DNA of 64,000 nt, from NCBI RefSeq assembly GCF_004359215.1, contig NW_027152213.1:903755-967754 (forward strand). The letters run 5' to 3'. The notes under the pieces were generated by a model, which was given only the letters and a program-made list of their open reading frames with translations, had not been told where the DNA came from and made no database searches. Shown one piece after another: positions 1 to 47,119 of the stretch. Numbering within the stretch: the stretch's first letter is position 1; every line of letters starts with the position of its first letter. The translations under genes and the position numbers were made by a program. This DNA comes from Bremia lactucae. Its lineage: Eukaryota; Oomycota; Peronosporomycetes; Peronosporales; Peronosporaceae.

Positions 1-484
1 GCCAAACACTGCTGACTGCGACGCACCAAGGCCTAGCCACTTTTTTATGCCCATAGCCGCAGCGACTTGAGATACTCGAGTAGTAAAGTTACTAAAAAAG
101 AAGTGAATCCAGCAGTACGGCAGCGTAGAGAGCGTCGTTCATCAGTCATATGTCTCAAGACAGAATGACTTCAATTGTTAAGGGAAACTACTTTATGCAG
201 CCTATCACTTCCTCAAAAAAAATTAAGATGATAATTTTTCAAGTTTATTAAAAGTGAGAGGCTACAGCGCGGCACATGCACACGATTTCCTGACATATGT
301 CGCGGGGCAGCCCGTTACATGATTATTATTGCCTAATACGAGGAAAGACAAAGACCATAATCTTGATTACTAGTATTGTCAATAACAAAACAAATGGTAT
401 TATTCTAGCAGTAACGTGGTATTTCTGTTCATTGGTTATCAACCTCACCAATCGCGGTGAGCAATGAGTTGCTATATAGGATGA
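1..484. other. No gene recognised
   Basis: I see no supported coding region here. The stretch is AT-rich with scattered stops in all frames and no LTR end that I can match to the families in this window. Confidence 0.4.
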
Positions 485-735
485 CGACGCCTTAACCGTG
501 TCATCTCTTATCAGTCCCGGCTTTTGAAAGCCACTGAGTTACCCTGTACATTACAAATAGCTACTTTCAATGAAGATGCACTTGTCAAGTATCGAATGTA
601 CCTGTTAAGCACCGACCATTTGTAGTTTATATGGACCACGCATCATTGCGGACCGCAATAAACTCACCGTACCTCTCGCCTAGAATGGCAAGATGGCTCA
701 CATTCTTCTCTGAATAAAGTCAGAACCATAAGATG
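485..735 (+). pseudogene. Gypsy RNase H fragment (family D type)
   Basis: A plus-strand stretch reads as retrotransposon RNase H, with the motif around DHASLRTAINSP at about 640-670 followed by an RMARW-like segment. Stops and frame changes break it. Wording upstream (about 480-560) matches the minus-strand RNase H of the family D element near 12,830-12,990 better than family A. It is an isolated fragment: the next sequence to the right is a family A LTR end in the opposite orientation. Confidence 0.55.
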
Positions 736-829
736 GTACTAGTGCGTAGGACTCATATATCAAACAGTGAAACGAGGCACTGCCGACTTGTACTGCTTCA
801 GTACAAGTCCAATTCGCACTGCCTCATAA

Positions 830-1558
830 GGATCTGATAAAATACATCCATCAGATCCATAGACGAAAAGATGGTACTCTTAGACATACCATCTATGATT
901 ACGTCTTTTATAGGTATCGGCGTTTAAGCCGGTTCCGTTGCAGCATTCAGTTTGTTGAATGCGTGCACTATCCGCCATTCTACTGGTCTTTCGCACACAG
1001 AAGGTCGGAGAGCTATGTGGGAGGGTTGACTCCTTAGATGGCCCGCTTTTAATCGATCGATAAAGAATTTATCGATCGCAAGTACTTGTTCACGAGGCAG
1101 TGGCCACTGCTTCATGAGACAGTATTTCAAGCCCGATTTGAGCTCGATTACATGTCGAGTGTCTTTATCCTTAGGCAATTCGCATGGAACTGTTTCAGAA
1201 CTTCATCCTTGAATTCAATCAAATCCTTGTATAAAGGATTTGTCTTAAGTGACTCCCAGGATCGAGTAGTAAATCTCTCAATCCGAGTCTTCACACCGAG
1301 GACACTTTCGTCCATCGATGAGCTGCAGAGAACCCCTTCGTTACCTGCAAAAATTACCGCTGACCGAATATCGATTTCGTATCCGTCCTCTGTGACGAGT
1401 ACGCGGATCTGTTTGATTCTATTGCTATGCAGATCTCTAAAGGACCGATTGGATTCTAGGGTTGGTAATTGAGTTATCTCCGAAATTAACTTCGGAGGCG
1501 CATACAGATCAAGAGTATAAGCGCCTCCTCTTGATCCGTCATTAACCAAGACATTCAA
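830..1558 (-). pseudogene. Family A reverse transcriptase, N-terminal part
   Basis: The minus strand encodes the segment leading into Ty3/gypsy RT: a pre-RT linker (SSSMDESVLGVKTRIE), then KQWPLPREQ and the start of the fingers domain (HIALRPSVCERP, LNAATEPA). Two frames are needed (1,558-1,148 and 1,178-924), so a frameshift lies near 1,150-1,180. The catalytic YFDD region is missing because the copy ends near 830. Homologous segments stand at 18,750, 29,940 and 41,040. Confidence 0.7.
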
Positions 1559-1559
1559 T

Positions 1560-2303
1560 GTCTCGGTTTCTTCTAAGATTTACCCACAGGCTGCCGAGGG
1601 ATCAATCCCTCGGAATACTGAAGTCTAGTCACTTCAGCATTAGCTATATTTAAGGTGAATTCACCTCAAGTACGTGGGGACTTATTCCCTCGACGCCTTC
1701 CGACTGTGATTGCGCTATCACAGTCGGGTCCTCTACGGTCGACTCTCTACTCGACCTAGGATCATCGTGTTGTTTATTTTGGACAACCGGTATCTTCCTT
1801 GGATGTCGCCCGCTAGGCGTACATTCATGTCTCAGACCACTCGGCTTATTCGAGTGGTGGACCTTCAGCGCTGCCTGTGCATTCACACAGCCGCCGACAG
1901 CTGACTCCACACGTGATTAGTAATCACGCTGTGATCTTGTGCAGCCGTACTTACGACTGTACCACAAGTGGGCCAACGCACTCACTTGTAGTACATCGAC
2001 ACGCTTGTGGACGCTCCAAGACGTTCATCAGATGGTCATCTGATGAACAAGTGGCAGGCATCTTTACGGATCGATGCTGCCAGCTGATTCTTAACTAATT
2101 ATTTCTGAGCCAAGGTAAACCTAGGATAACATCAAATTCATCATCCAATCCATTACGATGAAATCAGCATCATACTGTAAATCTTTTAACGTGTAGTGAA
2201 ATCTCACTGCGCGTTTCATCACTATTTTCGATGCGCCTGTCGCTAGACACACCGGCATCCTCGTGAGGAATGTCGCGCTCAACATATCTGAGCCTACGAC
2301 CCT
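1560..2303 (-). pseudogene. Family A protease-RT linker
   Basis: This stretch matches, in reverse complement, the plus-strand segments at 15,040-15,765 and 40,540-41,040 that join protease to RT. It is built of short stem-loops, for example around 1,590-1,620. Reading frames are short and broken, so it is an internal piece of the copy and not an independent gene. Confidence 0.55.
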
Positions 2304-3249
2304 CTAGCGAATGGCGACGAATAAAGTTTTCGACGCCCCACAGTCCACTACGGGTCTGAGTGACAAAGCATTTGTCACTTTTAACTTCAAGGTGATGAGG
2401 GATACCTCATCGCCAGGTGCAGAGACCCATAATGACAGTGTGGCTGGAACAACTTTCGTCAAGAGATTTGCCAATTCTCTTAAATTTGCTGGATCAGTAG
2501 GGCGTCGCGCCCCTACTGACTCCGACCGTTTTTGGCGGTCCGCCTCGCTGTTGCGATTTTGCAACAATGTCGGACCCGCGACCGTTGCCCTTTTTGACAT
2601 TCGGTCCATAATTACGTTCAGTACCTCTCGGTACTGAGCGTGGGGCACTGCACTCATGATCGTAGTGTCCTAACTTTTGACAGCGATTGCCTTTCTGCAA
2701 TCGCTTATTGTTCGAAAAGCGAGGTTTCTCGCTTTCGACATAAGAGAGATCCATAGGTTCTGGACCTCCAAGTTCGTGTCGTCTTGGAGGATCATATGAT
2801 GACGAACTAGCTTGAGCCTTTCTCAAGCTAAAGTCCTCCTGTTTCGCAACGGATATTGGCTCTTCAAGCGTATCCAGTTCCAAGCGGAACAGGTGGGTCT
2901 TCACTGGACCAACCGTAAGACCTTGCATGAACACCGTAATTAACATGTGTTTATGTACTGGGTTGATTGTGATACATGCTAAGAGTCGTACGTGCTGGGC
3001 ATAAGCGTGATCATCACGCTTGTCTTGCTTGAGTTTCAGAAGCTCTGATCGAGCTCTGAACTCAGCCCTAGGCGGTTCAAATGTCTGTTTGAGCCGGGCT
3101 TTAAAAGCCTCTAGCGACCCAAAGATATATGGGTCGCGCAACTTAAGGCCTAATGCCCAAGTTTCGGCACGACCTGCCAAATTTAATTGAGCAGATTCGA
3201 CTTGCATTTGCTCGTCGACGATGTGACGAGCCCTTATCGCATCGTCCAA
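2304..3249 (-). pseudogene. Family A Gag core, zinc-knuckle remnant and protease start
   Basis: The 251-codon minus-strand frame (3,249-2,494) has the look of a Ty3/gypsy retrotrans_gag domain (LNLAGRAETWALGLKLRD, FEPPRAEFRARSELLKLKQ) followed by a basic tail. A CCHC-like knuckle RCQKLGHYDHEC has lost its first cysteine. A second frame (2,657-2,304) continues into VVDCGASKTLF, the expected place of the aspartic protease active site; the motif is D-C-G instead of the usual D-S/T-G. Gag would assemble the particle and the protease would cut it. The frame change between them means this copy is probably dead. Confidence 0.7.
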
Positions 3250-3640
3250 CTCGACAAACCATCTGAAGGGGGAGTCTTGGTCGACTCCCCTATACTAAGA
3301 GATGTCAATCTTTAAGGTTTCGGGACGACTCGTGTGCGTCATCCCAGAACAGGGGTCTGAACCTGTTGCAACATCAACAGTTCTGCCTGTTGAAAGCCTT
3401 GCTGATTAAGCAAGGCTACCTTCTCCTTCGCCTCGTCAAGTTCATGCTGTATGAACTTGGCGATGGCTGGATGGAGGGCATCTCTGTCCAAACCGGACAG
3501 CATGGCCAAGATGGCTTCATTCCCTACGGTCGACTCATTCGTTCGACCACACTCCTTTCAATGTCACTTAGAAAGGAGTAGCTATCACGCGAAACGTGAT
3601 GCGTATTTCCATTATCATCCAACATGTTCATGCTAGATGA
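3250..3640 (-). pseudogene. Family A Gag N-terminus, frameshifted
   Basis: On the minus strand the start region near 3,624 encodes MLDDNGNTH-like residues, as at 40,007, but a frameshift around 3,525-3,540 puts a stop into the frame. The run contains the perfect stem-loop agccttgct/agcaaggct at about 3,393-3,415, which the family B gag repeats at 54,081-54,110. Confidence 0.55.
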
Positions 3641-3682
3641 TAGAACTGTGGTCCTCGGACGGACTACAAAAGTGCTATCAGG

Positions 3683-4012
3683 TGTAACGGGGCACCGCCG
3701 ACTTGTACTGCTTCAGTACAAATCCACTTCGCACTGCCTCAGTGCGAGTGGTGCCTCACGTCACTTCACGTACACTAATACGTGCAGCGGAAGACTCTCT
3801 TTGAAGCACTTGCTTTAAAAAGGGTTAAAAGACAATTATATTTAATACAATTAATTCCTTCTGGTTTTCTATCGATAAATACTTACTTAATTATATACTA
3901 ATACTTAACATGTAACAAAAGTCTACTCTCTCTCTCTCTTTGCGCGCGTCCAGCGATGAGTGGACCTCGGAGCATGTAGATATAATGGTCTATGCCAACT
4001 ACCTCACTGCAC
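3683..4012 (-). repeat. LTR-A, partial (5' LTR of copy 1)
   Basis: It begins with tgtaacggggcaccgccgac and matches the minus-strand solo LTR at 51,741-52,178 over about 330 bp. About 110 bp at its outer end are missing: the match stops near ggtctat at 4,010, where LTR-D-like sequence starts. Confidence 0.75.
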
Positions 4013-5430: not shown

Positions 5431-5912
5431 ATTTGTAGGCTTACTGCCTTTCGTTCATCAGATGGCGATCTCACGAACGTCTTGGAGCATCCACAAGCGT
5501 GTGGATGTCCTACGAGTGAGTGCGATGGTCTCACTTGTGGTTTGGTCGTTTGCACGACTGCAAAATGCCTCATTGTTATTACCCATTACACTGTGGAGTA
5601 AGATCTCGACGGCTTTGCACAAGCACAGGCAGCGTCAAAGTTCGACCATTCGAATAAGTTGAGTGGTTCGAAACAAGGATGCCTGCTGCAAAAGCAACAT
5701 CCAAGAAAATATCCAACGCCTGTCTATAAGAGTTAGTGCGAAAAATCCTAGATCGACTGGAGAGTCGATCGTGGAGGATCTCGCTGTGATTGAGCAACCA
5801 CAGCTAGAAGCAGTTGGGGAGGATACTCCCTGATAAAACTTGAGAGAAGAAGTCCTCAAGAATATGCAGGAATAAGTCCCCAGAAACCTGTCGTCAAAGG
5901 ATCCAGGTACCT

Positions 5913-6890
5913 TTGGAAATAAGCTCCAAAGAGGAAACTGGGAGATCAAATGTCTTAGCAAACAACGAATCATGTGTAGACGCTTATATACTTGATCTGA
6001 TAGCGCCGCCGGAGTTAATTTCGAAGATAACTCAATTGCCAATGCTAAAGCCGAAAGGGTTCTTGTGTGTTCTGCAGAGTGGCAAAGTCAAGCAGATCTG
6101 CGTACTTGTCCCAGATGACAAATATGTGTCCGATATTCGGTCGGCAATAGTATTTCCTGAGAACGAACGAGTTCTCAGCAGCTCATCGATGGCCGAAAGT
6201 GTCCTCGATGAGAAGACTCGGAGTAAACGTTTTAAATTTCAGTTCTGGGAGTCTTTGACAAACCCTCTGTATAAGAATTTAATAGAATCTAAGGATGTCT
6301 TTCCTGAATCAGTACCGTGCGAGTTACCGAAGGATAAAAGGTACTCGACACGAAAACGATCTCATACCAGGTTCAAAATACGGTGTTATGAAGCATTGCC
6401 CATTGCCTCGTGAAATAAGTATTAGCGATCCACAAATTCTTTGCCGAACGCTTAGCAGCGGGCCATGTGACGCAGTCAACCTCCCCACATAGCTCTCCGA
6501 CCTTCTGTGTGCGCAAAGCAACAGGAGGGTGGCGGAATGGGCATAAATTCAATCAACTGAGCGCTGCACCGATACCGGCCCAAATGCCGATACCATGAAA
6601 AGACGTAATTATTGATGGTATGTCAAACAGTACAATCTTTACGTCAATGCATCTGATGGGAGGACTATCAGATCCTTATGCGTGAACAGGATATCCCGTT
6701 CACAGCAGTAAGCACCCCAAGCAGAATGCTACAGGAGTGGCTAGTGATGCCACAAGAACTTAGTAATGCCCCTGCGACATTTAACAGATGTGTAACCAAT
6801 CTGTTAAGACCGGTACGAACTTTTGCACCGAGTCATTTAGATGACGTCTTCGCTATAAATGAGATATAAAAGGAAAGTCGGACGTTGTAG
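5913..6890 (+). pseudogene. Family B reverse transcriptase (broken)
   Basis: The first frame (5,913-6,413) has the pre-RT linker SSSMAESVLDEKTR and the ELPKDK region. A second frame (6,678-6,869) has PQELSNAPATFNRCVTNLL and then PSHLDDVF, where the catalytic Y-x-D-D box has become H-L-D-D. The tyrosine change and the frameshifts indicate loss of polymerase activity. Confidence 0.65.
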
Positions 6891-7249
6891 TACGCCGTAC
6901 TCACGTCCGAAAGATCTCACACTTATGCGTAAGCACAAAGTTATGCAAATCACAAGAAGTGGATATTCGCTGCAAGCAAAATACTACTTCTTGGGTGCAT
7001 CTTGGGTAAAGAAGGTGTGCGCCCTGATCCGAAATATGAAGGCAATCACCGAATGGCCTGTGCCAGCCGATTCAAAGGGACTTCGAAAGTTCCTCGGCTT
7101 AGCGGCGTACTTACATAAGTACATCCGCTATCATGCCGAAAAGACAATACATAATTCTTCTACATTCAAGAAAATGTAAAAAGTTCATGAAACGCTGATT
7201 GTCAGCGTTCCTTTGAGGGCATTAAGCAAAGCTTGTTTGGAATTCCCAA

Positions 7250-7630
7250 TCCTGGCGATTGCTAGTGGTCTATGACGCCAGCGATTTTGCAATCGGTTGT
7301 GCGTAAATGCAATATGATATAGACGGCGCAGAGCGCATTGTCCTCACCATGAAATATGAAGTAGCTAATTTTAGGGTCTATCTCTTGGGAGATAAACCGT
7401 TCATCGTAAATACGGACCATGCGTCTTTACGCACGGCTGTAAACAGTTCGCACCTCTCGCAAAGGATGGCGAGAGTGAAGTATAAACCAAGACGACTTAA
7501 CGTCGTCGCTGATGCCTTTTCGCGCCGGCCCAATTTTGAACAGGCTACGCAAATCAACAGTGAGCATAAGACCACTGTTTTCTCAATAAGTGTACCGTCG
7601 TTAACATTACTTGACGACGTTAGATAAGCT
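7250..7630 (+). pseudogene. Family B RNase H (broken)
   Basis: Residues such as YDASDFAIGC (before the frame starting at 7,307), VYLLGDKPFIVNTDHASLRT and RRLNVVADAFSRRP identify the Ty3/gypsy RNase H and its C-terminal tether. A short deletion after 7,320 relative to the copy at 57,312 removes part of the domain. Confidence 0.65.
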
Positions 7631-7815
7631 TATCAAGAAGATAAGGCTCTTAAAGGGTTGATGGATTACCTTACAGATCCATTCCAATAATCCTAGAAAG
7701 ATTTTTGACATTGTATCGATCCTCAACAGATCTATATAGAACACGCAATGGTTTGTTTTATTAAACAGCCATTGCTGGCGACACACCTCGTGTCGTCATC
7801 CCTACCCCAAAAAAT

Positions 7816-8285
7816 TTGCGATTACGCATTATGTATGAGTCCCTCGATGCACCAAAAAGTGGTCATCGTGTACATGAGGAGACTTATCTCATGATAAGTC
7901 GCGCCTTTTACTGGCCACGCCAGTGTGAGTTCGTCCGCAGGTACGTACGTGCTTGCAAATTTTGTCAACGGGTAAAGCCCAGTACCTCGTCCCGTGCTCC
8001 ATTAAAACCTCTGCTTGTTATGGCAGAGTGTTGGCAAAATCCGTATCTATGGGTGATGTCTTCGGATTCCCCGAAGACAACCAAAAGAATTATTATATTC
8101 TCGTTTTCGTTGATCGTTTTAGCAAGATGGTATATTTTTGTGCCGTCCCGGAGTCGATCACAGACAAAGGCTGTGCTCGTGTCTTTGCTGACACGATAGT
8201 TCGACTTCATGGGTACCCCGTGAGCTGGTCTCAGATCGAGACCCTTAATTTACAGCGTAAATGTTTCGTGCTTTTGCACATATAA
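7816..8285 (+). pseudogene. Family B integrase, N-terminal part
   Basis: The H2C2 zinc-binding region is visible (SGHRVHEETYLMISRAFYWPR, ARACKFCQRVKPS-like) and is followed in another frame by the start of the rve catalytic core (GDVFGFPEDNQKNYYILVFVDRFSKM). Sequence identity to integrase stops at about 8,285, where family C gag in the opposite orientation begins. Confidence 0.65.
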
Positions 8286-18740: not shown

Positions 18741-18754
18741 TAAAAATATAGCTT

Positions 18755-19780
18755 CGGAGATAACTCAATTACCTACCCTAGAATCCAAACGGCTCTTTAG
18801 AGATCTGCATAGTAATAGAATCAAGCAGATCTGCGTACTCGTCATAGAGGACGGATACGTAATCGATATTCGGTCAGCGGTATTTTTTGCAGGTAACGAA
18901 GGGGTTCTCAGCAGCTCATCGATGGACGAAAGTGTCCTCGGTGTGAAGACTCGGATTGAGAGATTTACTACTCGATCGTGGGAGTCACTTAAGACAAATC
19001 CTTTATACAAGGATTTGATTGAATTCAAGGATGAATTACTGAAACAGTTCCATGCGAATTGCCTAAGGATAAAGATTCTCGACATGTAATCGAGCTCCAA
19101 CCGGGCTTGAAATACTGTTTCATGAAGCAGTGGCCACTGCCTCGTGAACAAGTTCTTGCGATGGATAAATTCTTTATCGATCGATTAAAAGCGGGCCATC
19201 TAAGGAGTCAACCTACCCACATAGCTCTCCGACCTTCTGTGTGCGAAAGACCACAGGAGGGTGGCGGATAGTGCACGCATTCAACAAACTGAATGCTGCA
19301 ACGGAACCGGCTCAAACGCCGATACCTAGAAAAGACGTAATCATAGATGGTATGTCTAAGAGTACCATCTTTCGTCTATGGATCTGATGGATGGGTTCTA
19401 TCAAATCCTTATGCGTGAACGGGACATCCCGTACCCAGCAGTGAAAGCTCCCAGTGGGATGCTCTGGGAATGGCAAGTTGTGCCACAGGGGGCTTAGTAA
19501 CGCCTCTGCAACATTCAGCAGATGCGTAACGATCTGTTGAGACTGGTGCGAGAATTCGCACCGAGTTATTTTTGATGATGTGTTCGTCCATAGCCGGGAC
19601 ATGGACGGAAACACGGACGTGAAAGTTCATAAAACTCACATTCGTCAGGTTCTTACACTTATGCGAAAGTATAAGTGTAAGCGAATCTTAAGAATTGTAT
19701 ATTCGCTGCAAGCGAAATACCACTTCTTGGGTGCATCGTCGGTAAACACGGCGTGCGCCCTGATCCCGAAAAGATCAAAG
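18755..19780 (+). pseudogene. Family A copy 2 reverse transcriptase (broken)
   Basis: Pieces seen: SSSMDESVLGVKTRIERF, KQWPLPREQVLAMDKFF (19,059-19,271), TPIPRKDVIIDGMSKSTIF near 19,310, and SYF-DDVFVHSRDMDGN with a frame change near 19,568. The stem-loop cttacacttat/ataagtgtaag lies at 19,652-19,681. Confidence 0.65.
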
Positions 19781-19969
19781 CAATAACCGAATGGCCAGTT
19801 CCAGTCGATGTCAAGGGACTAAGAAAGTCCCTTGGATAAGCGGCGTACTTGCACAAGTACTACCGTAATTATGCAGAGATGACAGTTCATCTCTCTCGTC
19901 TTTTGAAAAAAAGACGAGAAATGGTTATGGAACGCTGATTGTCAGCGTTCCTATGAAGGTATCAAGCAA

Positions 19970-20400
19970 AGCTTGATGCAATCGCCCATGTTGGCGAATC
20001 CATATCAAGACAGACCATTCCAGGTGGTCTGTGACGCCAGCGATTTCGCAATCGGCTGTGCGTTAATGCAATACGATGCAGGCGCTCGGAGCGCGTCGTT
20101 AATTACCACTCGCGTCAGCTGCACCCAGCTGATCGCAATTACCCAGTGCATGACAAGAAACTCCTTGCCATGAAAAATGCACTGGCTGAATTTAGGGTCT
20201 ATCTCCTCGGAGATAGACCGTTCATCGTTTATACGGACCATGCATCACTACGCACGGCCGTAAACAGCCCACACCTCTCGCAAAGAATAGCGAGGTGGCT
20301 ATCCTTCTTCAAGGAGTATAATTTTTCCATGTAATATAAACCAGGACGACTAAATGTCGTCGCTCATGTGTTATCACGCCGACCCGATTTCGAGACGGCT
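19970..20400 (+). pseudogene. Family A copy 2 RNase H (broken)
   Basis: Frames 19,973-20,173 (YQDRPFQVVCDASDFAIGCA) and 20,146-20,334 (FRVYLLGDRPFIVYTDHASL, TAVNSPHLSQRIARW) give RNase H in two pieces, with a frameshift around 20,090-20,150 and a stop at 20,334. The identical sequence is found at 31,084-31,514. Confidence 0.7.
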
Positions 20401-21860
20401 GCGTATTCCAACAGTGAATTTTTTTCTGCTGTTGCTACACTCATTTCAAGTGTTCCGTCATCAACCTTGTTTCATTAAAAAAAAGAAAGCTTTCGCAGAA
20501 GATAAGAGCCTTCTGCGTTTAATTGATCATCTGGTGAACCCATCCGATAATTCATTTAAAGACTTATCGGCTTTATATCGATCGTCATCCGATCGATACA
20601 CAACATGCAACGGCTTATTGTATTACACAGCCGTTGCCGGCTACACTCCACGTGTCGTCGTCCCAACTCACAATGATTTGCGCTTGCGCATCAGGTATGA
20701 GTGTCACGATGCACCAACAAGTGGGCATCGTGAACGTGAGAAAACTTATCTCACAGTAAGTCGCGACTTTTACTGGCCCCACCAGTATCAGTTCGTGCGC
20801 AAGTACATTCGTGTTTGCGAAGAGTGTCAACGGGTGAAGCCTAGCCCTTCATCCCGTGACCCTCGCCAACCTTATTACTTCCTTCTGGCAGAATGTTGGC
20901 AGTCCGTATTTATGGACTTCGCCTTCGGTTCCCCGAAGACGATCACAAAAACAATTGAATCCTTGTTTTTGTAGACAGATTCACCAAAATGGTACATCTT
21001 GTTGCAAAACCAGAGTCGATCACGGCTCCAGACTGTGCCCGTGTCATTATCGACACGGTATTCAGACTCCACGGTTGACCCCGTGAACTAGTCTCCGATA
21101 GAGATCCACGGTTCACGGCGGAGTTTTAGCAATCCGTGTTCCGAAAGATCGGAACACGGCTGACTATGTCAACTTCTGATCATCCAGAGACAGATGGTCA
21201 GACGAAACGCGTAAATCGCGTCCTCGAAGAGATACTTCGAGGTTATGTCCAATCATATCAGAATTAAAGCGAGTTTATACCGATGTTCGCGTTCGCCATC
21301 AACAATTCGGTGCATGCGTCGACAACGCATACACTGTTTTTCGTGAATGGCTTACGCCATCTACGCATAGCCACCCGATTAGAGGGATCCTTTAGTTAGA
21401 GGGGGGGGGCTTGCAGAGGCAAAGCCATTTCTGGCTCATGCACATCACGCGTCGAAGTTACAAACGACGCGAATGATGTCGATAGCTTCGCAATCGACAT
21501 CGCAGATAAGAAAGATCTCATGGCAGTGCGAACAAAGCGCACTGAAAAGACAAAACAAATGAGTCAGTAGAGGAATTTCTGCTGGCTCGAGTATCAGTAG
21601 TTCGTTTCGTACAGCATTCTATTGCTTACGCAGTATACCGGCAGAAACGGAACGCAGACAATCATGAAAGAGCAAATGTTCTTTCATTTAAAATTAATGA
21701 TCTAGTACTAGTGTCTACGTTAAACTTACCTAAGCGTGTAGTCACGAATGTGGGTAGAAATAAACAACTACTCAAGTTCATTGGGCCATTCCGTGTACTG
21801 GATCGCAGGGGCAATGCGTACAATAGAATTGCCACGTAGGATGCGAACGCATCCTACGTT
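20354..21860 (+). pseudogene. Family A copy 2 integrase (broken)
   Basis: The 206-codon frame 20,354-20,974 holds the H2C2 finger (CHDAPTSGHREREKTYLTVS, CEECQRVKPSPSSRD) and the start of the core (FMDFAFGSP). The remaining core (SDHPETDGQTKRVNRVLEE at about 21,175-21,230) and the GPY/F region (KFIGPFRVLDR, FYVGRIRPYHQY at about 21,775-21,890) require other frames. It contains the 11-bp stem-loop ccgtgttccga/tcggaacacgg at 21,134-21,159. Confidence 0.7.
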
Positions 21861-21971
21861 TTACGTTGGTCGGATCCGCCCGTACCATCAGTACGCGGTT
21901 TCTTCCGAGGACGGATCTGATCACCCTTTTCAAGAATCCCTAAACGATTCTTGTTGTCACGAACCAGATTC

Positions 21972-23545
21972 TCATGTTGACTCTGGTGATTTCTCATGCC
22001 GAATCCGAAGTTCCTCGAAATCGCGACGAGATGTCGACAGCTCGTCACGAAGAGCGTGACATTTCCGTTCGTACCTTAACATTAAGTACGCACTTTTCGA
22101 ACGGACTTTCAACCGTTCCATACGGTGAGTTTGCACCGTCTGTTTCAACGAGTGGAGCTTACCGCTCTCGTGATCAAGACCCTCCTCCAATACATGGAGG
22201 TAGTGGTCGAGTTTGTCGATCTTCGACTCTAAATCCGACACATAGGTCGGAACTAAATTTCCTTCCTCCACCACAACCATTAGTGGATTTCCACGGTGGT
22301 CAACGTCTCCTTGTGGAACGTATCGTAAACCACCGTGATGTGAAGGGGCAGCGAACGAGTTATCTTGTTCGCTGGCGCGGTTATCCACCTTCGCATGACA
22401 GCTGGAAGCCTCGTTCCCAGCTGGTTGTTGACGTTGAGGGCCTCGTCGTCAGTATGACGAGACCCATCCGATGGATCAGAAGGTCCATCGGAAAACACGC
22501 GCCCCTGGCGCATGTAAATTGATTGCAAAACGTCAATCGCATCGCGCATCTCGATCGAGATGCGAGTCCTTCCCCAGGGCGAAGAAAGGGAATAAACATC
22601 TCATTTTACTCGTTTCGTGTTGTCGACACAACACGGATAGGGATCACCCCACGTGAGGCATGGAAGTCCTGCCTCACGAGACACCCGATGCAGTTTAAAT
22701 TGTGCACCAGTTGGAGTTCGGTTTCAAACTTAACGCGAATTGCGTTAAGTCTTTAAAGCCAGGCTTCGCGTCCAATGTCTTTGACATTGCGAATAAACGC
22801 GCTCCAGGCTTGCATCAACGAGATTTTATCTCACTTGTTGCTGCCACTATACCATCGTTGCTTAAGAAAAGCATCGAGATAAAAATCTTCCTCAGCGCGA
22901 AAATTCTTCGCGCTGGGATCAAGGCCATGTAGCTTTGTCGCAATAAAGAAGGGATATTTTTTATGAGGAGCAGTCTCTCCAGAAAAGCTACTGACTAGCC
23001 GTTCGGGCAAAAGTCACGGCTTCTTCTCAGGGGCAAGACGAGACATTTTATTGTCTGCGCTTCCCTGAGTGGTACACATTGAAGCAGGGGTACTACAAGA
23101 ACTTTAAATACGATGGCGTAAGCCATCGTCATCACCACGACAGGAATATGTGCGGGTGACGGCACGGTAGACGGTGCTGGCGATGAGGAATCATCCTCAT
23201 CGTCGGAACCAATCATGCTATAGCAAACGCTATAAGCACGTCTATACGATTGAGCCCCCTCATTCGAAGGCTCATAGTCAGACGCCTAACGATGATTGGG
23301 CGACTGTTCTGTTATCCCCGAGACGGCCATTTCGTCCGACTCGCATTCGTGGTCGACCCCCAAAGAGGGGTTGTAATCACGTGGCGAATTACAACGTGCA
23401 TCCGCAACATCTAGTGTTGCGGGAGGAGATGATACTACGGCAGACGGAACGCTTCCGCAAGGGACAATAATGCGTCGCCCGCGGCTGCATGAACCGCAGC
23501 CGAAGGCGCCGCACTATTCGCATACCGCATGGACTTGTTAACCAT
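21972..23545 (-). pseudogene. Antisense ORF of family A, copy 2 (broken)
   Basis: The minus strand opens with ATG at 23,545, 117 bp inside the 3' LTR (MVNKSMRYANSAAPSAAVHA). Frameshifts break the middle. The last part (22,388-21,972, opposite the integrase-chromodomain linker) is an open 138-codon frame rich in heptads: SDLESKIDKLDHYLHVLEEG, MLRYERKCHALRDELSTSRR. Compare 46,948-45,238. Confidence 0.5.
22271..22522 (+). pseudogene. Family A copy 2 chromodomain
   Basis: The plus frame contains [20 protein letters not shown] followed by [19 protein letters not shown], a clear chromodomain fused to integrase by a Ser/Thr-rich linker. The same segment stands at 33,385, 45,666 and, for family B, 59,712. 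Confidence 0.75.
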
Positions 23546-23661
23546 GCGATCAAATAAAAATGATGGTTTTGACCAATAAAAATCTTTTTTAATAAAGTGG
23601 TCATATAGTGACCACTCTACCCAATGACAGTCAGATTGATTGTCGTTAAAGGGAGGGGGGA

Positions 23662-23979
23662 TGTAACATGAAATTAACACTTAAGGCTGTTAGTTAAAAT
23701 ATTATCTAAACGGTAGATAATATTTGGAGAATATTACGTTACATGGTAATATTCTAAAAGCTTATCCATTGGTAGATATAGACCTTTATATCTACTTGCT
23801 CTGCGGTCCAGTTAGCGCTGGACGCGCGTAAAGAGAAATACTGATAAGATTTAATTACATGTTTGTATTAGATTATAATAAAGTTTGTATTGAGTGATAG
23901 ACAAGAAGAACTTAACCATATTAAATACAGCTTACTTTAACCCTCTATAAAGCAAGTGTTATAAAAGAGAAGACTTCCT
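23662..23979 (+). repeat. LTR-A, 3' LTR of copy 2, truncated
   Basis: It begins tgtaacatgaaattaacact, lacking the usual ggggtgtatcgttaca part, and follows the 39,511 LTR up to gacttcct at 23,978. The last 120 bp or so are replaced by unrelated sequence. Confidence 0.75.
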
Positions 23980-24120
23980 GGCGTAGAGACAAGACGCCTC
24001 TCAGAGGCCGGGACAATCACGTCCCCAAATTTTCCAGCTTGTAATGGCTCAGTACCAGACATGGTGTCTTAGTCGACATCCGACAAGGCGTTAGATGACT
24101 CAATTTCCTTGTCCAGCGAA

Positions 24121-29640: not shown

Positions 29641-29925
29641 CACTCCACACATTTAATGCGTGCTGGGCATAAGCGCGAACATCACGCTGTCATGCTTGAG
29701 TTTCAGAAGCTCCGATCGAGCTCTGAACTCAGCCCTAGGAAAATTAGAGGTCTGTTTTTTTAGCCGAGTTTTAAAAGCCCCTAGCAACCCAATGACATAT
29801 GGGTCGCGCAACATAAGGTCTAGCGCCCAATTTTTGCCACAGCCTGCCAAATTTGATTGAGCAATGCGACTTGCATTTGCTCGTCGACAATGTGACAAGC
29901 ACTTATCGCATCTGCCAACTTGACG
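29641..29925 (-). pseudogene. Family A Gag core fragment
   Basis: The 81-codon minus frame (29,898-29,653) matches the family A Gag at 3,230-2,990: AQSNLAGCGKNWALDLMLRD and FPRAEFRARSELLKLKHDSV. A small insertion turned FKARLKQTFEPP into a shifted variant. It ends at a junction with plus-strand family A RT at about 29,931. Confidence 0.65.
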
Positions 29926-29939
29926 AATCCAGTATCAGG

Positions 29940-30926
29940 CAGATCTACGTACTCGTCACAAAGGACGAATACGTTGCCGATATTCGGTCAGCGGCAATAA
30001 TTGCAGAAAACGAACGAGTTTTTAGCAGCTCATCGATGGGCGAAAGTGTTCGCGATGTGAAGACTCGGATTGAAAGTTATACTTCTTAATCCTAAGGGTC
30101 ACTTAAGACAAATTCTTTATACAAGGATTCAATTGAATACAGGGATGTATTCCCTCAAGCAGTTCCATGCGAGTTGCCTAAGGATAAAGGCACTCGACAA
30201 GGATCGAGCTCAAACCGGGCTCGAAGTACTGTGTCATCAAGCAGCGGCCACTGTTTCTTGAACAAGTAATTGCGATCGATAAATTCTTTATCGATCGATT
30301 AAAAGCAGGACATGTAAGGGAGTCAGCCTCCCCACATAACCCCCCCAACCTTCTGTGTGCGAAAGGCCAAAAGAGAGTGGCGGATAGTGCACGCATTCAA
30401 TAAACTGAATGCTACAATGGTACCGGCTCAGACACCGTGACCTAGAAAAGACGTAATTATAGATGGTATGTCTAAGAGTACCATTATTTCGTCTATGGAT
30501 CTGACGGATAACTTTTATCAGACCCTTACGCGTGAACGTAGATACCGTACACGGCAGAGAGCACTCCCAGTGGGATGCTCTGGAAATGGCTAGTGATACG
30601 TCAGGGGCTTAGTAACGCCCCTGCAACATTTAACAGATGTGTAACAACTCTGTTAAGACCGTTGCGAGAATTCGCACGAGAAATTTGACGATGTATTCAT
30701 CCATAGCCGGTTTATGGACGGAAAGACGTACGTACAAGTTCATGAAACTCACGTTCGTCAGGTTCTTACACTTATGCGAGATCATAAGTTGTACGCAAAT
30801 TTCAAGAAATGTATGTTCACTGCAAGCGAAATGCACCTTCTTGGGTGAATCGACGGTAAACACGGTGTGCGCCCTGGTCCCGAAAAGATCAAGGGAATCA
30901 TCGACTGGTCAATCCCAGTTAATTTT
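29940..30926 (+). pseudogene. Family A copy 3 reverse transcriptase (broken)
   Basis: Pieces read IRQIYVLVTKDEYVADIRSA, SSSMGESVRDVKTRIE, RIKALDKDRAQTG and, near 30,670, a decayed FDDVFIHSRFMDGK box. Frame changes occur about every 150 bp. It differs from copy 2 in this part, in contrast to the identical sequence that follows. Confidence 0.6.
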
Positions 30927-33900
30927 AAGGGACTAAGAAAGTCCCTTGGATAAGCGGCGTACTTGCACAAGTACTACCGTAATTATGCAGAGATGACAGT
31001 TCATCTCTCTCGTCTTTTGAAAAAAAGACGAGAAATGGTTATGGAACGCTGATTGTCAGCGTTCCTATGAAGGTATCAAGCAAAGCTTGATGCAATCGCC
31101 CATGTTGGCGAATCCATATCAAGACAGACCATTCCAGGTGGTCTGTGACGCCAGCGATTTCGCAATCGGCTGTGCGTTAATGCAATACGATGCAGGCGCT
31201 CGGAGCGCGTCGTTAATTACCACTCGCGTCAGCTGCACCCAGCTGATCGCAATTACCCAGTGCATGACAAGAAACTCCTTGCCATGAAAAATGCACTGGC
31301 TGAATTTAGGGTCTATCTCCTCGGAGATAGACCGTTCATCGTTTATACGGACCATGCATCACTACGCACGGCCGTAAACAGCCCACACCTCTCGCAAAGA
31401 ATAGCGAGGTGGCTATCCTTCTTCAAGGAGTATAATTTTTCCATGTAATATAAACCAGGACGACTAAATGTCGTCGCTCATGTGTTATCACGCCGACCCG
31501 ATTTCGAGACGGCTGCGTATTCCAACAGTGAATTTTTTTCTGCTGTTGCTACACTCATTTCAAGTGTTCCGTCATCAACCTTGTTTCATTAAAAAAAAGA
31601 AAGCTTTCGCAGAAGATAAGAGCCTTCTGCGTTTAATTGATCATCTGGTGAACCCATCCGATAATTCATTTAAAGACTTATCGGCTTTATATCGATCGTC
31701 ATCCGATCGATACACAACATGCAACGGCTTATTGTATTACACAGCCGTTGCCGGCTACACTCCACGTGTCGTCGTCCCAACTCACAATGATTTGCGCTTG
31801 CGCATCAGGTATGAGTGTCACGATGCACCAACAAGTGGGCATCGTGAACGTGAGAAAACTTATCTCACAGTAAGTCGCGACTTTTACTGGCCCCACCAGT
31901 ATCAGTTCGTGCGCAAGTACATTCGTGTTTGCGAAGAGTGTCAACGGGTGAAGCCTAGCCCTTCATCCCGTGACCCTCGCCAACCTTATTACTTCCTTCT
32001 GGCAGAATGTTGGCAGTCCGTATTTATGGACTTCGCCTTCGGTTCCCCGAAGACGATCACAAAAACAATTGAATCCTTGTTTTTGTAGACAGATTCACCA
32101 AAATGGTACATCTTGTTGCAAAACCAGAGTCGATCACGGCTCCAGACTGTGCCCGTGTCATTATCGACACGGTATTCAGACTCCACGGTTGACCCCGTGA
32201 ACTAGTCTCCGATAGAGATCCACGGTTCACGGCGGAGTTTTAGCAATCCGTGTTCCGAAAGATCGGAACACGGCTGACTATGTCAACTTCTGATCATCCA
32301 GAGACAGATGGTCAGACGAAACGCGTAAATCGCGTCCTCGAAGAGATACTTCGAGGTTATGTCCAATCATATCAGAATTAAAGCGAGTTTATACCGATGT
32401 TCGCGTTCGCCATCAACAATTCGGTGCATGCGTCGACAACGCATACACTGTTTTTCGTGAATGGCTTACGCCATCTACGCATAGCCACCCGATTAGAGGG
32501 ATCCTTTAGTTAGAGGGGGGGGGCTTGCAGAGGCAAAGCCATTTCTGGCTCATGCACATCACGCGTCGAAGTTACAAACGACGCGAATGATGTCGATAGC
32601 TTCGCAATCGACATCGCAGATAAGAAAGATCTCATGGCAGTGCGAACAAAGCGCACTGAAAAGACAAAACAAATGAGTCAGTAGAGGAATTTCTGCTGGC
32701 TCGAGTATCAGTAGTTCGTTTCGTACAGCATTCTATTGCTTACGCAGTATACCGGCAGAAACGGAACGCAGACAATCATGAAAGAGCAAATGTTCTTTCA
32801 TTTAAAATTAATGATCTAGTACTAGTGTCTACGTTAAACTTACCTAAGCGTGTAGTCACGAATGTGGGTAGAAATAAACAACTACTCAAGTTCATTGGGC
32901 CATTCCGTGTACTGGATCGCAGGGGCAATGCGTACAATAGAATTGCCACGTAGGATGCGAACGCATCCTACGTTTTACGTTGGTCGGATCCGCCCGTACC
33001 ATCAGTACGCGGTTTCTTCCGAGGACGGATCTGATCACCCTTTTCAAGAATCCCTAAACGATTCTTGTTGTCACGAACCAGATTCTCATGTTGACTCTGG
33101 TGATTTCTCATGCCGAATCCGAAGTTCCTCGAAATCGCGACGAGATGTCGACAGCTCGTCACGAAGAGCGTGACATTTCCGTTCGTACCTTAACATTAAG
33201 TACGCACTTTTCGAACGGACTTTCAACCGTTCCATACGGTGAGTTTGCACCGTCTGTTTCAACGAGTGGAGCTTACCGCTCTCGTGATCAAGACCCTCCT
33301 CCAATACATGGAGGTAGTGGTCGAGTTTGTCGATCTTCGACTCTAAATCCGACACATAGGTCGGAACTAAATTTCCTTCCTCCACCACAACCATTAGTGG
33401 ATTTCCACGGTGGTCAACGTCTCCTTGTGGAACGTATCGTAAACCACCGTGATGTGAAGGGGCAGCGAACGAGTTATCTTGTTCGCTGGCGCGGTTATCC
33501 ACCTTCGCATGACAGCTGGAAGCCTCGTTCCCAGCTGGTTGTTGACGTTGAGGGCCTCGTCGTCAGTATGACGAGACCCATCCGATGGATCAGAAGGTCC
33601 ATCGGAAAACACGCGCCCCTGGCGCATGTAAATTGATTGCAAAACGTCAATCGCATCGCGCATCTCGATCGAGATGCGAGTCCTTCCCCAGGGCGAAGAA
33701 AGGGAATAAACATCTCATTTTACTCGTTTCGTGTTGTCGACACAACACGGATAGGGATCACCCCACGTGAGGCATGGAAGTCCTGCCTCACGAGACACCC
33801 GATGCAGTTTAAATTGTGCACCAGTTGGAGTTCGGTTTCAAACTTAACGCGAATTGCGTTAAGTCTTTAAAGCCAGGCTTCGCGTCCAATGTCTTTGACA

Positions 33901-34231
33901 TTGCGAATAAACGCGCTCCAGGCTTGCATCAACGAGATTTTATCTCACTTGTTGCTGCCACTATACCATCGTTGCTTAAGAAAAGCATCGAGATAAAAAT
34001 CTTCCTCAGCGCGAAAATTCTTCGCGCTGGGATCAAGGCCATGTAGCTTTGTCGCAATAAAGAAGGGATATTTTTTATGAGGAGCAGTCTCTCCAGAAAA
34101 GCTACTGACTAGCCGTTCGGGCAAAAGTCACGGCTTCTTCTCAGGGGCAAGACGAGACATTTTATTGTCTGCGCTTCCCTGAGTGGTACACATTGAAGCA
34201 GGGGTACTACAAGAACTTTAAATACGATGGC
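30927..34231 (+). repeat. Long direct repeat, copy 2 (3,305 bp)
   Basis: See 19,813-23,117: same sequence at an offset of 11,114. It holds the connection end, RNase H, integrase, linker and chromodomain of a family A element, with the same stops and frameshifts in both. Confidence 0.85.
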
Positions 34232-34660
34232 TTACGCCATCGTCATCACCACGCACAGAGATAAGTGCGGGTGACGGCACGGGAGACGGTGCTGGTGATG
34301 AGGAATCATCCTCATCGTCGGAACCAACATGTTATAGCGAGCGCTATTAGCACGTCTATCCGATTGAGCCCCGTCATTCGAAGGCTCGTAGTCAGCCGCC
34401 TGACGACGTTCAAACGACTGTTCTGCTCTCCCCGAGTCGGCTGTTTCGTCCGACTCGCATTCGTAGTCGACCTCCAAAGAGGGATCGCACTGACGTGGTG
34501 ACTCACCACGTGCACCCGCAACATCTAGTGTTGCGGGAGAAGATGATTCGACGACAGACGAAAAGTCTGCCGTAAGATACAATCATGCGTCACCCGCGGC
34601 TGCATGAACCGCAGCCGAAGGTTCCGCCCTATTCGCTGACCGCATGGACTCGTTAACCAT
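33086..34660 (-). pseudogene. Antisense ORF of family A, copy 3 (broken)
   Basis: ATG at 34,660 (MVNESMRSANRAEPSAAVHA), a stop soon after, then an open stretch 34,582-34,232 with SSSPATLDVAGARGESPRQC and ECESDETADSGRAEQSFERR. From 34,231 leftward it is the same as in copy 2, including the coiled-coil frame 33,502-33,086. Confidence 0.5.
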
Positions 34661-34755
34661 GCGATAGAATTAAAAAGGATGGTTTTGACCGATCAACATC
34701 GTTTTCACTTAAGTGGTCTTATAGTGACCACCCTGTTCAATGACAGTCAGGCGGG

Positions 34756-39510: not shown

Positions 39511-39950
39511 TGTAACGGGGTGTATCGTTACATGAAACTAATACTTAGAGGTTGTTTATTAATATATTATTTGAAAGGTAGATAATATTTGTAAAATATT
39601 ACTTTACATGGTAATATTCTAAAAGCTTATCCATTGGTAGATATAGACCACTATATCTACTTCCTCCGCGGTCCAGTCAGCGCTGGACACGCGCAAAGAG
39701 AGAAACAGATAAGACTTTATTACATGTTTTGTATAAGTTTATAATTAAAATACTATTAAATAGATAGAACAGAAGAACTTAATTATATTAAATACAGTTT
39801 TACATTAACCCTTTTTAAAGCAAGTGTTTTAAAGAGAGTCTTCCCCTGCACGTACTAGTGTACGTGAAGTGACGTGAGGCATCACTCGCACTGAGACAGT
39901 GCGAAGTGGACTTGTACTGAAGCAGTACAAGTCAGTAGCGCTCCGTTACA
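39511..39950 (+). repeat. LTR-A, 5' LTR of copy 4
   Basis: 440 bp, tgtaacggggtgtatcgttaca at the start and ctccgttaca at the end. It contains successive perfect stem-loops: tgtaacg/cgttaca (39,511-39,532), cacgtac/gtacgtg (39,849-39,866) and acttgtact/agtacaagt (39,910-39,932). Confidence 0.85.
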
Positions 39951-40006
39951 CCTGGCAGCACTTAGTAGTCCGTCCAAGGACCACAGATCCATCATCTAAC
40001 TTGGAC

Positions 40007-40480
40007 ATGTTAGATGATAATGGAAATACGCATTACGTTTCGCGTGATAGCTACTTCTTTCTAAGTGACATAGGAAGGAGTGCGGTCAAACGAATGAGTT
40101 CGATTTTAGGAAACGATGCCACCTTGGCCATGCTGTCTGGTTTGGACAGAGATGCCCTTCATTCAGTTATTGCCAAGTTCATTACAACATGATTTTGACG
40201 AGGCGAAGGAGAAGGTAGCCTTGCTTAATCAGCAATGCTCTCAACAGGCAGAACTATTGAGGTTACAACAGGTACAGACCCCTGTACCTGCGATGACGCA
40301 CACGCGTCGTCCCGAAACCTTAAAGATTGACATCTCTAAGTATAGGGGGCTCAAATATGTTGAGCGCGACATCCCTCCAACGAGGATGACGGTGCGTTCA
40401 GCGACAGGCGCATCGATAACAGTAATGAAACGCGTAGTGAAATTTCACTACACGTTAAAAATTACAGTACGATTATGATT
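40007..40480 (+). pseudogene. Family A copy 4 Gag remnant
   Basis: The start frame 40,007-40,192 (MLDDNGNTHYVSRDSYFFLS ...) is stopped after 61 codons. Downstream, PETLKIDISKYRG at about 40,310-40,350 is joined directly to LKYVERDIPPTRM, which in copies 1 and 2 lies after the protease. The Gag core, zinc knuckle and protease active site, about 1 kb, are thus deleted. Confidence 0.7.
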
Positions 40481-40539
40481 TCATCGTACTGGATTTGGAT
40501 GAGAAATTTGATGTCATCCTAAGAAAATATGAGCCAAGA

Positions 40540-41035
40540 ATCAGCTAGCAGCATCGATCCGTAAAGATATCTGCCACCTGTTCATCAGATGGCCATCTAA
40601 TGAGCGTCCACAAGCGTGTGGACGTACTACGAGTGAGTCCGATGGCCTCACTTGTGGTACGGTCATTAGTACGACTGCACAAGATCACAGTGTGATTACT
40701 ATACACCCTGTGGAGTCAGCTGTCGGCTGCTGTGCGAATGCACAGGCAGCGCCGAAGGTCCACCACTCGAATAAGTCGAGTGGTCTGAGACATGAATGAA
40801 CGCCTAGCGGGCGACATCCAAGGAAGATACCGGTTGTCCAAAATAAACAACACGATGATCCTAGGTCGAGTTGAGAGTCGACCGTAGAGGACCCGACTGT
40901 GATAGCGCAATCACAGTTGGAAGACGTTGAGGGAATAAGTCCCCACGTACTTGAGGTGAATTCACCTTAAATATAGTTAATGCTGAAGTGACTAGACTTC
41001 AGCATACCGATGGATTAATCCCTCGGCAGCATTTG
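40540..41035 (+). pseudogene. Family A copy 4 protease-RT linker
   Basis: It matches 15,260-15,765 of copy 2 and the reverse of 2,090-1,580 of copy 1. It is non-coding by broken frames, with stem-loops such as cttcagcataccgatgg and gaggtgaattcacctta. Confidence 0.55.
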
Positions 41036-42826
41036 GATATATCCCAGGAAGAAACCGAGACATTGAATGTCTTGGTTGATGACGGATCAAGAGTAGGCGC
41101 TTATACTCTTGATCTGTTTGCGCCTCCGAAGTTAACTTCGGAGATAACTCAATTACCAACCCTAGAACCCAAGCAATTCTTGAGAGAACTGCATAGTAAT
41201 AGAATCAAACAGATCTGCGTACTCGTCACAGAGGACGAATACGTAACCGATATTAGGTCAGCGGTAATTTTTGCAGAGAACGAACGGGTTCTCAGCAGCT
41301 CATCGATGGACGAAAGTGTCCTCGATGTGAAGACTCGGATTGAGAGATATACTACTCAATCCTGGGAGTCACTTAAGACAAATCCTTTATACAAGGATTT
41401 GATTGAATTCAGGGATGTATTCCCTGAAGCAGTTCCATGCGAGTTGCCTAAGGATAAAGGCACTCGACATGAGATCGAGCTCAAACCGGGCTCGAAGTAC
41501 TGTGTCATGAAGCAGTGGCCACTGCCTCGTGAACAAGTACTTGCGATCGATAAATTCTTTACCGATCGAGTAAAAGCGGGCCATGTNNNNNNNNNNNNNN
41601 NNNNNNNNNNNNNNNNNNNNNNNNNNNNNNNNNNNNNNNNNNNNNNNNNNNNNNNNNNNNNNNNNNNNNNNNNNNNNNNNNNNNNNNNNNNNNNNNNNNN
41701 NNNNNNNNNNNNNNNNNNNNNNNNNNNNNNNNNNNNNNNNNNNNNNNNNNNNNNNNNNNNNNNNNNNNNNNNNNNNNNNNNNNNNNNNNNNNNNNNNNNN
41801 NNNNNNNNNNNNNNNNNNNNNNNNNNNNNNNNNNNNNNNNNNNNNNNNNNNNNNNNNNNNNNNNNNNNNNNNNNNNNNNNNNNNNNNNNNNNNNNNNNNN
41901 NNNNNNNNNNNNNNNNNNNNNNNNNNNNNNNNNNNNNNNNNNNNNNNNNNNNNNNNNNNNNNNNNNNNNNNNNNNNNNNNNNNNNNNNNNNNNNNNNNNN
42001 NNNNNNNNNNNNNNNNNNNNNNNNNNNNNNNNNNNNNNNNNNNNNNNNNNNNNNNNNNNNNNNNNNNNNNNNNNNNNNNNNNNNNNNNNNNNNNNNNNNN
42101 NNNNNNNNNNNNNNNNNNNNNNNNNNNNNNNNNNNNNNNNNNNNNNNNNNNNNNNNNNNNNNNNNNNNNNNNNNNNNNNNNNNNNNNNNNNNNNNNNNNN
42201 NNNNNNNNNNNNNNNNNNNNNNNNNNNNNNNNNNNNNNNNNNNNNNNNNNNNNNNNNNNNNNNNNNNNNNNNNNNNNNNNNNNNNNNNNNNNNNNNNNNN
42301 NNNNNNNNNNNNNNNNNNNNNNNNNNNNNNNNNNNNNNNNNNNNNNNNNNNNNNNNNNNNNNNNNNNNNNNNNNNNNNNNNNNNNNNNNNNNNNNNNNNN
42401 NNNNNNNNNNNNNNNNNNNNNNNNNNNNNNNNNNNNNNNNNNNNNNNNNNNNNNNNNNNNNNNNNNNNNNTAAAAGCGGGCCATGTAAGGGAGTCAACCT
42501 CCCCACATAGCTCTCCGACCTTCTGTGTGCGAAAGACCACAGGAGGGTGGCGGATAGTGCACGCATTCAACAAACTGAATGCTGCAACGGAACCGGCTCA
42601 AACGCCGATACCTAGAAAAGACGTAACTATAGATGGTATGTCTAAGAGTACCATCTTTTCGTTTATGGATCTGATGGATGGATTTTATCATATCCTTATG
42701 CGTGAACGGGACATCGCGTACACAGCAGTGAGCACTCCCGGTGAGATGCTCTGGGAATGGCTAGTTATGACAGAGGGACTTAGTAACGCCCCTGCAACAT
42801 TCAACAGATGCGTACGTATCTGTTGA
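41036..42826 (+). pseudogene. Family A copy 4 reverse transcriptase, with assembly gap
   Basis: The longest RT frame of family A: pre-RT linker (TYTLDLFAPP-like, SSSMDESVLDVKTRIERY), ELPKDKGTRHEIELKPGSKY, KQWPLPREQVLAIDKFFTDR, the gap, then SPHSSPTFCVRKTTGGWRIV, NKLNAATEPAQTPIPRKDV, GFYHILMRERDIAYTAVSTP and EGLSNAPATFNRC. A small deletion near 42,815 shifts the frame; YFDDVFVHSRAMDGK follows in the next frame at about 42,850-42,895. A canonical YFDD box is present, so the copy decayed fairly recently. Confidence 0.78.
41587..42470. other. Run of 884 N (assembly gap)
   Basis: The 16 bases taaaagcgggccatgt stand directly before (41,571-41,586) and after (42,471-42,486) the gap. In other family A copies they occur once and the sequence reads on, so the true gap is probably nil. 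Confidence 0.9.
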
Positions 42827-45960: not shown

Positions 45961-46102
45961 GGAGAAGAAAGGAAATAGAAATAACCTTACACTAGCTTCG
46001 TGTTGTCAACACACCACGGACAGGGATCACCCCACGTGAGGCATGGAAGTCCTGCCTCGCGAGACAACCGAAGCAATTTATACCTTGCACCGGTTGGAGT
46101 TC

Positions 46103-47055: not shown

Positions 47056-47119
47056 TGTAACGGCCCGTTACATGAAATTAACACTCAAAGGTTGTTAATT
47101 AATATATTATCTAAAAGGT
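47056..47119 (+). repeat. 3' LTR-A remnant (64 bp) of copy 4
   Basis: It begins tgtaacggcccgttacatga after a purine tract and follows LTR-A up to atctaaaaggt at 47,119, where host sequence starts. The acid phosphatase start codon is 54 bp further on. Confidence 0.8.

Follow-up and report, generated by a model that had tools for sequence, protein, structure and literature searches.

Two families of Gypsy retrotransposons, A and B, lie in a 64,000-nucleotide stretch of the genome of the oomycete Bremia lactucae (contig NW_027152213.1, positions 903,755 to 967,754; here called the window). Their whole length, in long terminal repeats (LTRs) and coding DNA alike, is studded with short inverted repeats, and either strand folds on itself. 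We observe an enrichment of hairpins that is independent of codon use and restricted, among the sequences sampled, to certain families, hairpin sites that recur from copy to copy, folding of both strands, compensated pairs between family A and a diverged family, and inverted loops. The explanation that we favour, with a confidence just short of even, is that folding of both strands has been favoured and that strand switching, which probably took place in reverse transcription, has reworked the folds.

Perfect stems across families A and B

Stems were counted as perfect arms of at least 7 bp enclosing a loop of no more than 12 nt, with the mean of 60 dinucleotide shuffles as the expectation. 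The window holds 364 of them, densest in its Gypsy copies, which are given here with observed against expected stems:

18749..23980, + strand: Gypsy element A1, the reference copy, hairpin-rich across pol, the 3' region and the 3' LTR; 49 against 4.0 (z 24)
29863..34750, + strand: Gypsy element A2; 44 against 3.7 (z 19)
39511..47119, + strand: Gypsy element B, which encloses an LTR (43735-44175); 73 against 4.2 (z 33, with a 102-nt palindrome masked)
478..3993, - strand: related hairpin-rich Gypsy copy; 37 against 2.3 (z 18)
55227..60002, + strand: more diverged Gypsy family with hairpin sites common to A and B; 34 against 3.2 (z 15)
5444..8244, + strand: older, decayed Gypsy copy; 13 against 2.1 (z 7)

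The excess runs from 6-fold in the old copy to 17-fold in B. Five of these elements carry 7-11 stems/kb and the old copy 4.6, against 0.6-0.8 in the shuffles, and the 43 sequences that could be aligned to A1 (see below) carry 4.5-12.1. Long stems stand out further: those of at least 9 bp number 21 in A1 (0.17 expected), 17 in A2 (0.3) and 31 in B (0.28). Codon use does not produce them, as the original prediction had held. Across 61 open sense pieces of at least 180 amino acids, drawn from related copies and hence not independent, codon-preserving shuffles yield 49.9 stems of at least 7 bp where 503 are present (10-fold), and 5.0 of at least 9 bp where 163 are present (33-fold). With dinucleotide and codon-preserving shuffles both far below the observed counts, chance, codon use or composition is refuted as the source of the stems; nothing was found in favour of that explanation, and we leave it practically no probability.

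The same prediction had named nine stems by their arms and three more in LTRs. All 12 are perfect inverted repeats, several of them longer than first described (10 bp at 19929-19951, 11 bp at 39909-39933 and 10 bp at 43264-43289). Its spacing of one stem every 25-40 bases over several kb describes local runs, such as 19845-20030, but not A1 as a whole, where perfect stems of at least 7 bp occur once per 107 bases on average and hairpins cover 21% of the bases. It had seen no such runs in PPIP5K, acid phosphatase or Copia, and these lie near or slightly above expectation: 5 stems against 2.1 (z 2.0), 2 against 1.0 (z 1.3) and 4 against 1.5 (z 2.3), respectively, with dinucleotide shuffles, and 2 against 1.15 and 0 against 0.95 (PPIP5K), 2 against 0.86 (acid phosphatase) and 2 against 0.46 (Copia) with codon shuffles. 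Density in A and B is thus well above that in both kinds of shuffle and in host exons, where equality had been named as the outcome that would tell against the claim. Among further stretches of the window compared with dinucleotide shuffles, 34800-35440 has 1 stem against 0.4; less flat are 24000-29600 (11 against 4.6, z 3.2), 48700-50500 (5 against 1.0, z 4.2) and 8256-13400 (13 against 3.4, z 5.5).

The LTRs are rich in stems too, six of them carrying 6.4-18.1 stems/kb against 0.5-1.5 expected. Two examples are:

39511..39951, + strand: LTR of 441 bases that holds 8 perfect stems
50991..51472, + strand: LTR of 482 bases that holds 8 perfect stems

The first of these opens, at 39511-39532, with an inverted repeat of its own (TGTAACG/CGTTACA), and similar repeats lie at 47055, 53259 and 61279.

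Loop sizes were profiled in 12 copies. The excess falls mostly at loop lengths of 0-12 nt and is highest at 3-5 nt; beyond them a small tail, reaching 8-fold at 13-14 nt, fades out by about 30 nt, and these copies have neither a stem excess at loops of 61-150 nt nor a comparable excess of direct repeats. An excess limited to short loops, without one of direct repeats, falls in the size range of real hairpins. Stem lengths drop off above 11-12 bp.

A and B are Ty3/Gypsy LTR retrotransposons with a chromodomain, a clade known as chromoviruses. Their LTRs are accompanied by Pfam matches to integrase H2C2 (in 20354-20974) and the chromodomain (in 21974-22522) of A1, and to RVT_1 (in 40988-42826) and RNase H (in 43236-43739) of B; single copies remain open only in short pieces, the reading being broken up. 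A2 is 94.9% identical to A1 across 4827 aligned columns, the copy at 478-3993 is 84-95% identical to A1, A2 or B (matches of at least 590 bases), and 55227-60002 reaches about 74-80% identity to A and B in long matches. Among the best 120 of 3136 matches, the named proteins nearest to the pol of a related family come from Peronospora effusa and then from Phytophthora species. The repeat blocks A1 20084-22885 and A2 31198-33999 are 100% identical, and the blocks that flank them share 65-91%, a pattern such as gene conversion, recombination or a collapsed assembly would leave. The LTR at 43735-44175 sits inside the pol region of B and interrupts it. All 884 N bases of the window fall within 41000-43000, and the long minus-strand open reading frames that cross them are probably artefacts.

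Folding of the two strands

Sliding-window folding, which had been proposed as a check, places A and B far below the energies of shuffled sequence and leaves PPIP5K, acid phosphatase and Copia without a folding excess (z between +0.7 and -1.4). Per 120 nt, four A pieces fold at -35.6 to -43.0 against -26.2 to -29.0 for codon shuffles, and the piece from L055, a locus close to B, at -39.1 against -27.5; z ranges from -8 to -19 across these five pieces. The minus strand folds as strongly as the plus strand or slightly more so (z -8 to -16). The minimum folding energy difference (MFED) in 350-nt windows, computed with 10 dinucleotide shuffles per window at a step of 175, is 35.7% in A1, 42.6% in B, 38.7% in L013 (another relative from the assembly) and 40.8% in L055, and spans 26.7-42.6% when 55227-60002 is included; 55227-60002 and the sister loci L051 and L054 (see below) have values of 27-29%. 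PPIP5K, acid phosphatase and Copia give 0.2-2.4%, and other stretches of the window 6.3% (24000-29600), -2.2% (48700-50500) and 1.0% (53300-54100). The stretch 8256-13400, other sequence that is partly Gypsy-like, is an intermediate case at 15.2%.

The strand symmetry extends to mismatches. Within stems there are 707 G-U and 766 A-C mismatches, and at the level of alleles the ratio is 206/221 for singletons, 130/124 for those in 2-3 copies and 31/27 for those in at least four. Compared with one codon shuffle per piece, G-U pairs are rarer both in four A/B pieces and in the sister loci L050, L051, L052 and L054, which are poor in G-U on both strands. Since G-U and A-C mismatches are about equally frequent and the minus strand folds equally well, selection on sense RNA alone is disfavoured.

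Simulation points the same way, as a guide only, given its simple design (computer-random proteins, hill-climbing on synonymous codons, 40 windows per mode). Selection on the sense strand alone left the minus strand 7.4 kcal/120 nt weaker, against 1.7 without selection, and selection on both strands restored near symmetry. Sequences evolved in silico to equal folding contained only 2.1-2.3 perfect stems/kb; with so few, folding pressure alone does not give A and B.

Recurring hairpin sites and loop inversions

The assembly (116 Mb, 220 contigs) was searched for relatives, and 40 of 4177 first-look candidates were scored. The comparison set of 44 sequences consists of 38 fetched regions, five further copies from the window and A1; the remaining seven rows of relatives are A1, A2 and five fragments inside fetched regions. 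Mapped on A1, 1765 hairpins (139 with an unmapped end) form 186 site groups, 86 of which are present in at least six of the 44 copies; 85 were kept. Hairpin sites are conserved within A and B and partly in 55227-60002, as the following examples illustrate (hairpins have no strand):

19652..19681: hairpin with an 11-bp stem in A1; L013, L027, L055 and L056 have an 8-bp stem and a GAAA loop here
19875..19977: run of four back-to-back hairpins, each in 30-31 of the 44 copies
20196..20219: hairpin present in 28 copies

Diverged copies could be compared at 37 of the 85 sites for 55227-60002 and at 21 for 5444-8244. Between family A and 55227-60002, 13 of 305 pairs are compensated against 3.6 after shuffling, and none of 2000 shuffles reached 13. 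Together the two diverged copies have 18 listed compensated pairs, 15 of them double transitions; in 55227-60002, two of the 11 stems with compensated pairs carry two of them, a count for which no statistic was computed.

Loops were compared with the family loop at each site. Copy by copy, 75 are strongly variant; within tolerance, 20 of these equal its reverse complement, one its complement and none its reverse. Counted as distinct variants, nine of 58 are exact inversions, against 0.31 expected from other sites, with no complement or reversal among them; for loops of at least 5 nt the figures are four of 33 against 0.07, and with tolerance 11 against 3.4. At seven of these 11 sites a single copy has the inverted loop; at the rest, between two and six copies do. 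Clusters of changes show a related bias: when 500 were each tested in two directions, 26 were templated by a nearby reverse complement of at least 8 bases, against four by a complement and five by a reverse. New arms that are reverse-complement copies are present in two places. At L055, a 14-bp stem was made with an insertion whose length, 18 nt, is divisible by three and which the 11 other sequences readable at this place lack; at 46103-46204 in B, comparison with A1 identifies the right half of a palindrome as native and the left as an inverted copy. In the base composition of 5' arms A is commonest, and the G-C or T-A excess that switching in one direction should leave is absent. Examples of the altered sites are:

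19977..20002: hairpin with a 6-nt loop exactly inverted in L013, L021 and L035
21134..21159: 11-bp hairpin whose loop in A1 and A2 is the reverse complement of the family loop, bar one mismatch
23110..23129: hairpin with a 4-nt loop exactly inverted in A1 and L039
23438..23458: hairpin with a 3-nt loop exactly inverted in six copies
46103..46204: inverted duplication in B that forms a perfect palindrome of 50 bp around a 2-nt loop

The loop inversions and the 50-bp inverted duplication are footprints of template switching. Short perfect stems together with inverted loops imply that strands were switched in copying at these hairpins. Of the three meanings originally proposed for the stems, template switching has thus left direct footprints, a structured sense RNA on its own is disfavoured by the strand symmetry, and shielding from or feeding of the small-RNA machinery is possible.

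Sister families, rival explanations and known systems

Eight further Gypsy loci of the same genome were compared. L055 and L056, both close to B, have 9-10 stems/kb, L049 has 3.1 and L050-L054 have 0.5-1.9, and among the sequences sampled from the genome the enrichment of hairpins is restricted to certain Gypsy families. The pol pieces of L050, L051, L052 and L054 (L053 was left out of the folding set) nevertheless fold strongly, with z of -7.5 to -15, without an excess of perfect stems. Single-base bulges break their stems at 36-51/kb against 14-18 (one shuffle each), their pairings have little in common with those of A and B (z 2.2 to 3.0), and L054, with pairs up to 60 apart, has 68 single-base bulges in 1359 bases. 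That a bulged design exists beside the perfect one, and is equally strand-symmetric, suggests that folding itself is favoured, and with a sister family so strongly folded through bulged stems, switching is probably not the whole story. When random mutation was simulated for L050-L054, the observed partner was better folded than the mutated copy in 20 of 20 directed pairs on both strands, a result to which we give no weight, since the common ancestor of the two copies was itself folded and biases the design. L049 folds weakly (z -2.5); its related long open pol piece (280-2601) has five perfect stems of at least 9 bp against 0.08 expected, and in the aligned part of pol four of five hairpins lie where A and B have none. 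Related families with perfect stems, with bulged stems and with almost no structure make up a natural experiment within one genome, which bears on whether genome-wide RNA or DNA structure arises by mutation or selection and on whether it protects mobile elements from silencing.

In the explanation that we favour, hairpins would form in single strands, the element's RNA and its complementary DNA, during replication. Reverse transcriptase would switch strand at them, inverting loops, copying one arm from the other and sometimes inserting a new arm, and the folded state would be retained because it benefits the element. Family specificity, and the fact that private compensated changes in resident copies are not clearly in excess, would place the switching in the element's own replication and hence with reverse transcriptase. 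The most likely benefit would be that sense and antisense transcripts escape recognition as long double-stranded RNA or as small-RNA targets. Small RNAs of both orientations cover the Gypsy elements of Phytophthora infestans (PMC3522703), so a two-strand shield is a reasonable guess. Creation by switching and retention by selection may both contribute. A bolder claim, to which we would give rather less than even weight and which we therefore regard as somewhat unlikely, is that in a clade of LTR retrotransposons the entire two-strand genome is a self-folding string of hairpins that its own reverse transcriptase makes and renews by switching strands, with sister families arriving at the same folded state through the bulged design. 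If true, mobile elements would have a nucleic-acid architecture of a new kind, spanning the whole genome and serving as strand-symmetric armour against recognition by double-stranded-RNA or small-RNA pathways.

Several results weigh against the favoured explanation. Hairpins in resident copies decay nearly freely, diversity being 0.115 in stems and 0.130 in spacers. Private compensated changes number 8 against 4.05 after shuffling, and all compensated cells, related copies included, 83 against 53.6; private double changes of any kind are also raised (20 against 12.3), so there is no clear excess attributable to conversion after insertion. Covariation with family A is not significant in 5444-8244 (5 against 3.3), and between B and family A (66 sites) one of the three pairs changed on both sides is compensated. 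A/B and the sister families have few predicted pairings in common (z 1.3 to 3.8); the comparison of A_L020 with B_L055 is uninformative, as these two pieces hardly overlap (21% identity). Templated clusters are only a minority, and at 12 bases or more the lead of reverse complements falls to 6 against 0 and 3. Young pairs have none, whether between L055 and L056 (0 of 13) or among L050-L054 (0 of 78 rows), the latter being weak evidence, with two or three expected at the rate of family A. Viral contigs, the one outside set scanned, contain no relative of the pol piece of L054 as far as that scan shows.

A purely mutational ratchet, in which switching by this clade's reverse transcriptase makes and repairs palindromes, folding brings no benefit and purifying selection on the protein only limits where they persist, is unlikely in our estimation, even with much that fits it. 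The loop inversions, the clusters templated by reverse complements, the hairpin inserted in L055, the 50-bp inverted duplication and the strand symmetry would all follow from it. So would loops that are more variable than spacers (diversity 0.167 against 0.130) and amino acids that, in six of the seven related pieces compared, are less conserved in stems and loops than in spacers (B_L055 is the exception, and A_L036, at 0.27 in spacers, looks misaligned), a difference that may mean merely that hairpins are placed where the protein is free. The difficulty lies with L050, L051, L052 and L054 and their single-base bulges: a switch made across a bulge would put the protein out of frame, and so the bulged design should not come from switching. 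Selection for a folded sense RNA, a genome-scale ordered RNA structure (GORS) as in plus-strand RNA viruses with switching incidental, would explain the very high folding excess throughout coding DNA, and pairings that are little shared between families are also published for GORS (PMC7642675). We consider it improbable in view of the balance of G-U and A-C mismatches in every frequency class, the equally folded minus strand and the weak minus strand and sparse perfect stems (2.1/kb) of the simulation. Lastly, a host process acting on all DNA and best seen in repeats, whether template switching at replication forks or cruciform extrusion, has precedent in the template switching described for host replication (PMC8794818) and could account for the mild enrichment elsewhere in the window, at 8256-13400 and 48700-50500. 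Host exons, Copia and L050-L054 are nevertheless near expectation for perfect stems, and private compensated changes in resident copies are without clear excess; family specificity largely refutes this account, which we rate as very improbable.

With known chromodomain Ty3/Gypsy elements, A and B share reverse transcriptase, RNase H, the zinc-binding domain of integrase, the chromodomain and LTR repeats; no description of such hairpin arrays was found among the matches listed by searches of open-access literature. In Escherichia coli, imperfect inverted repeats are likewise hotspots of template-switch mutation, as single sites there (PMC7202029) and element-wide here. The hairpins attributed to template switching in work on RNA genes and DNA replication (PMC8794818) are similar in their loop inversions, reverse-complement insertion hairpin and compensated pairs. 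In that study loop inversions are few (69 loop-only and six that include a compensated change). In our case a single mobile element, coding over much of its length, carries about 85 recurring hairpin sites, nine of them with exact loop inversions and two more with near ones.

The closest likeness in folding is to viral RNA of the GORS type, which also has consecutive short-range stem-loops through its coding sequence and pairings that turn over faster than the protein (PMC7642675). A and B have the folding excess over shuffles throughout coding sequence by which GORS is recognized. In GORS this is a property of the genomic RNA strand, whereas mismatches and folding here are without strand asymmetry; A and B differ further in their many perfect short stems, in a minus strand as folded as the plus and in being LTR retrotransposons of an oomycete. 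Their MFED of 36-43% (four sequences) stands against about 15% in SARS-CoV-2 and 23.4%, the highest recorded for vertebrate RNA viruses in that source, values to which ours are comparable though not identical in method. By this measure the folding of A and B exceeds the highest value that the same source gives for vertebrate RNA viruses, inside protein-coding DNA and with both strands alike.

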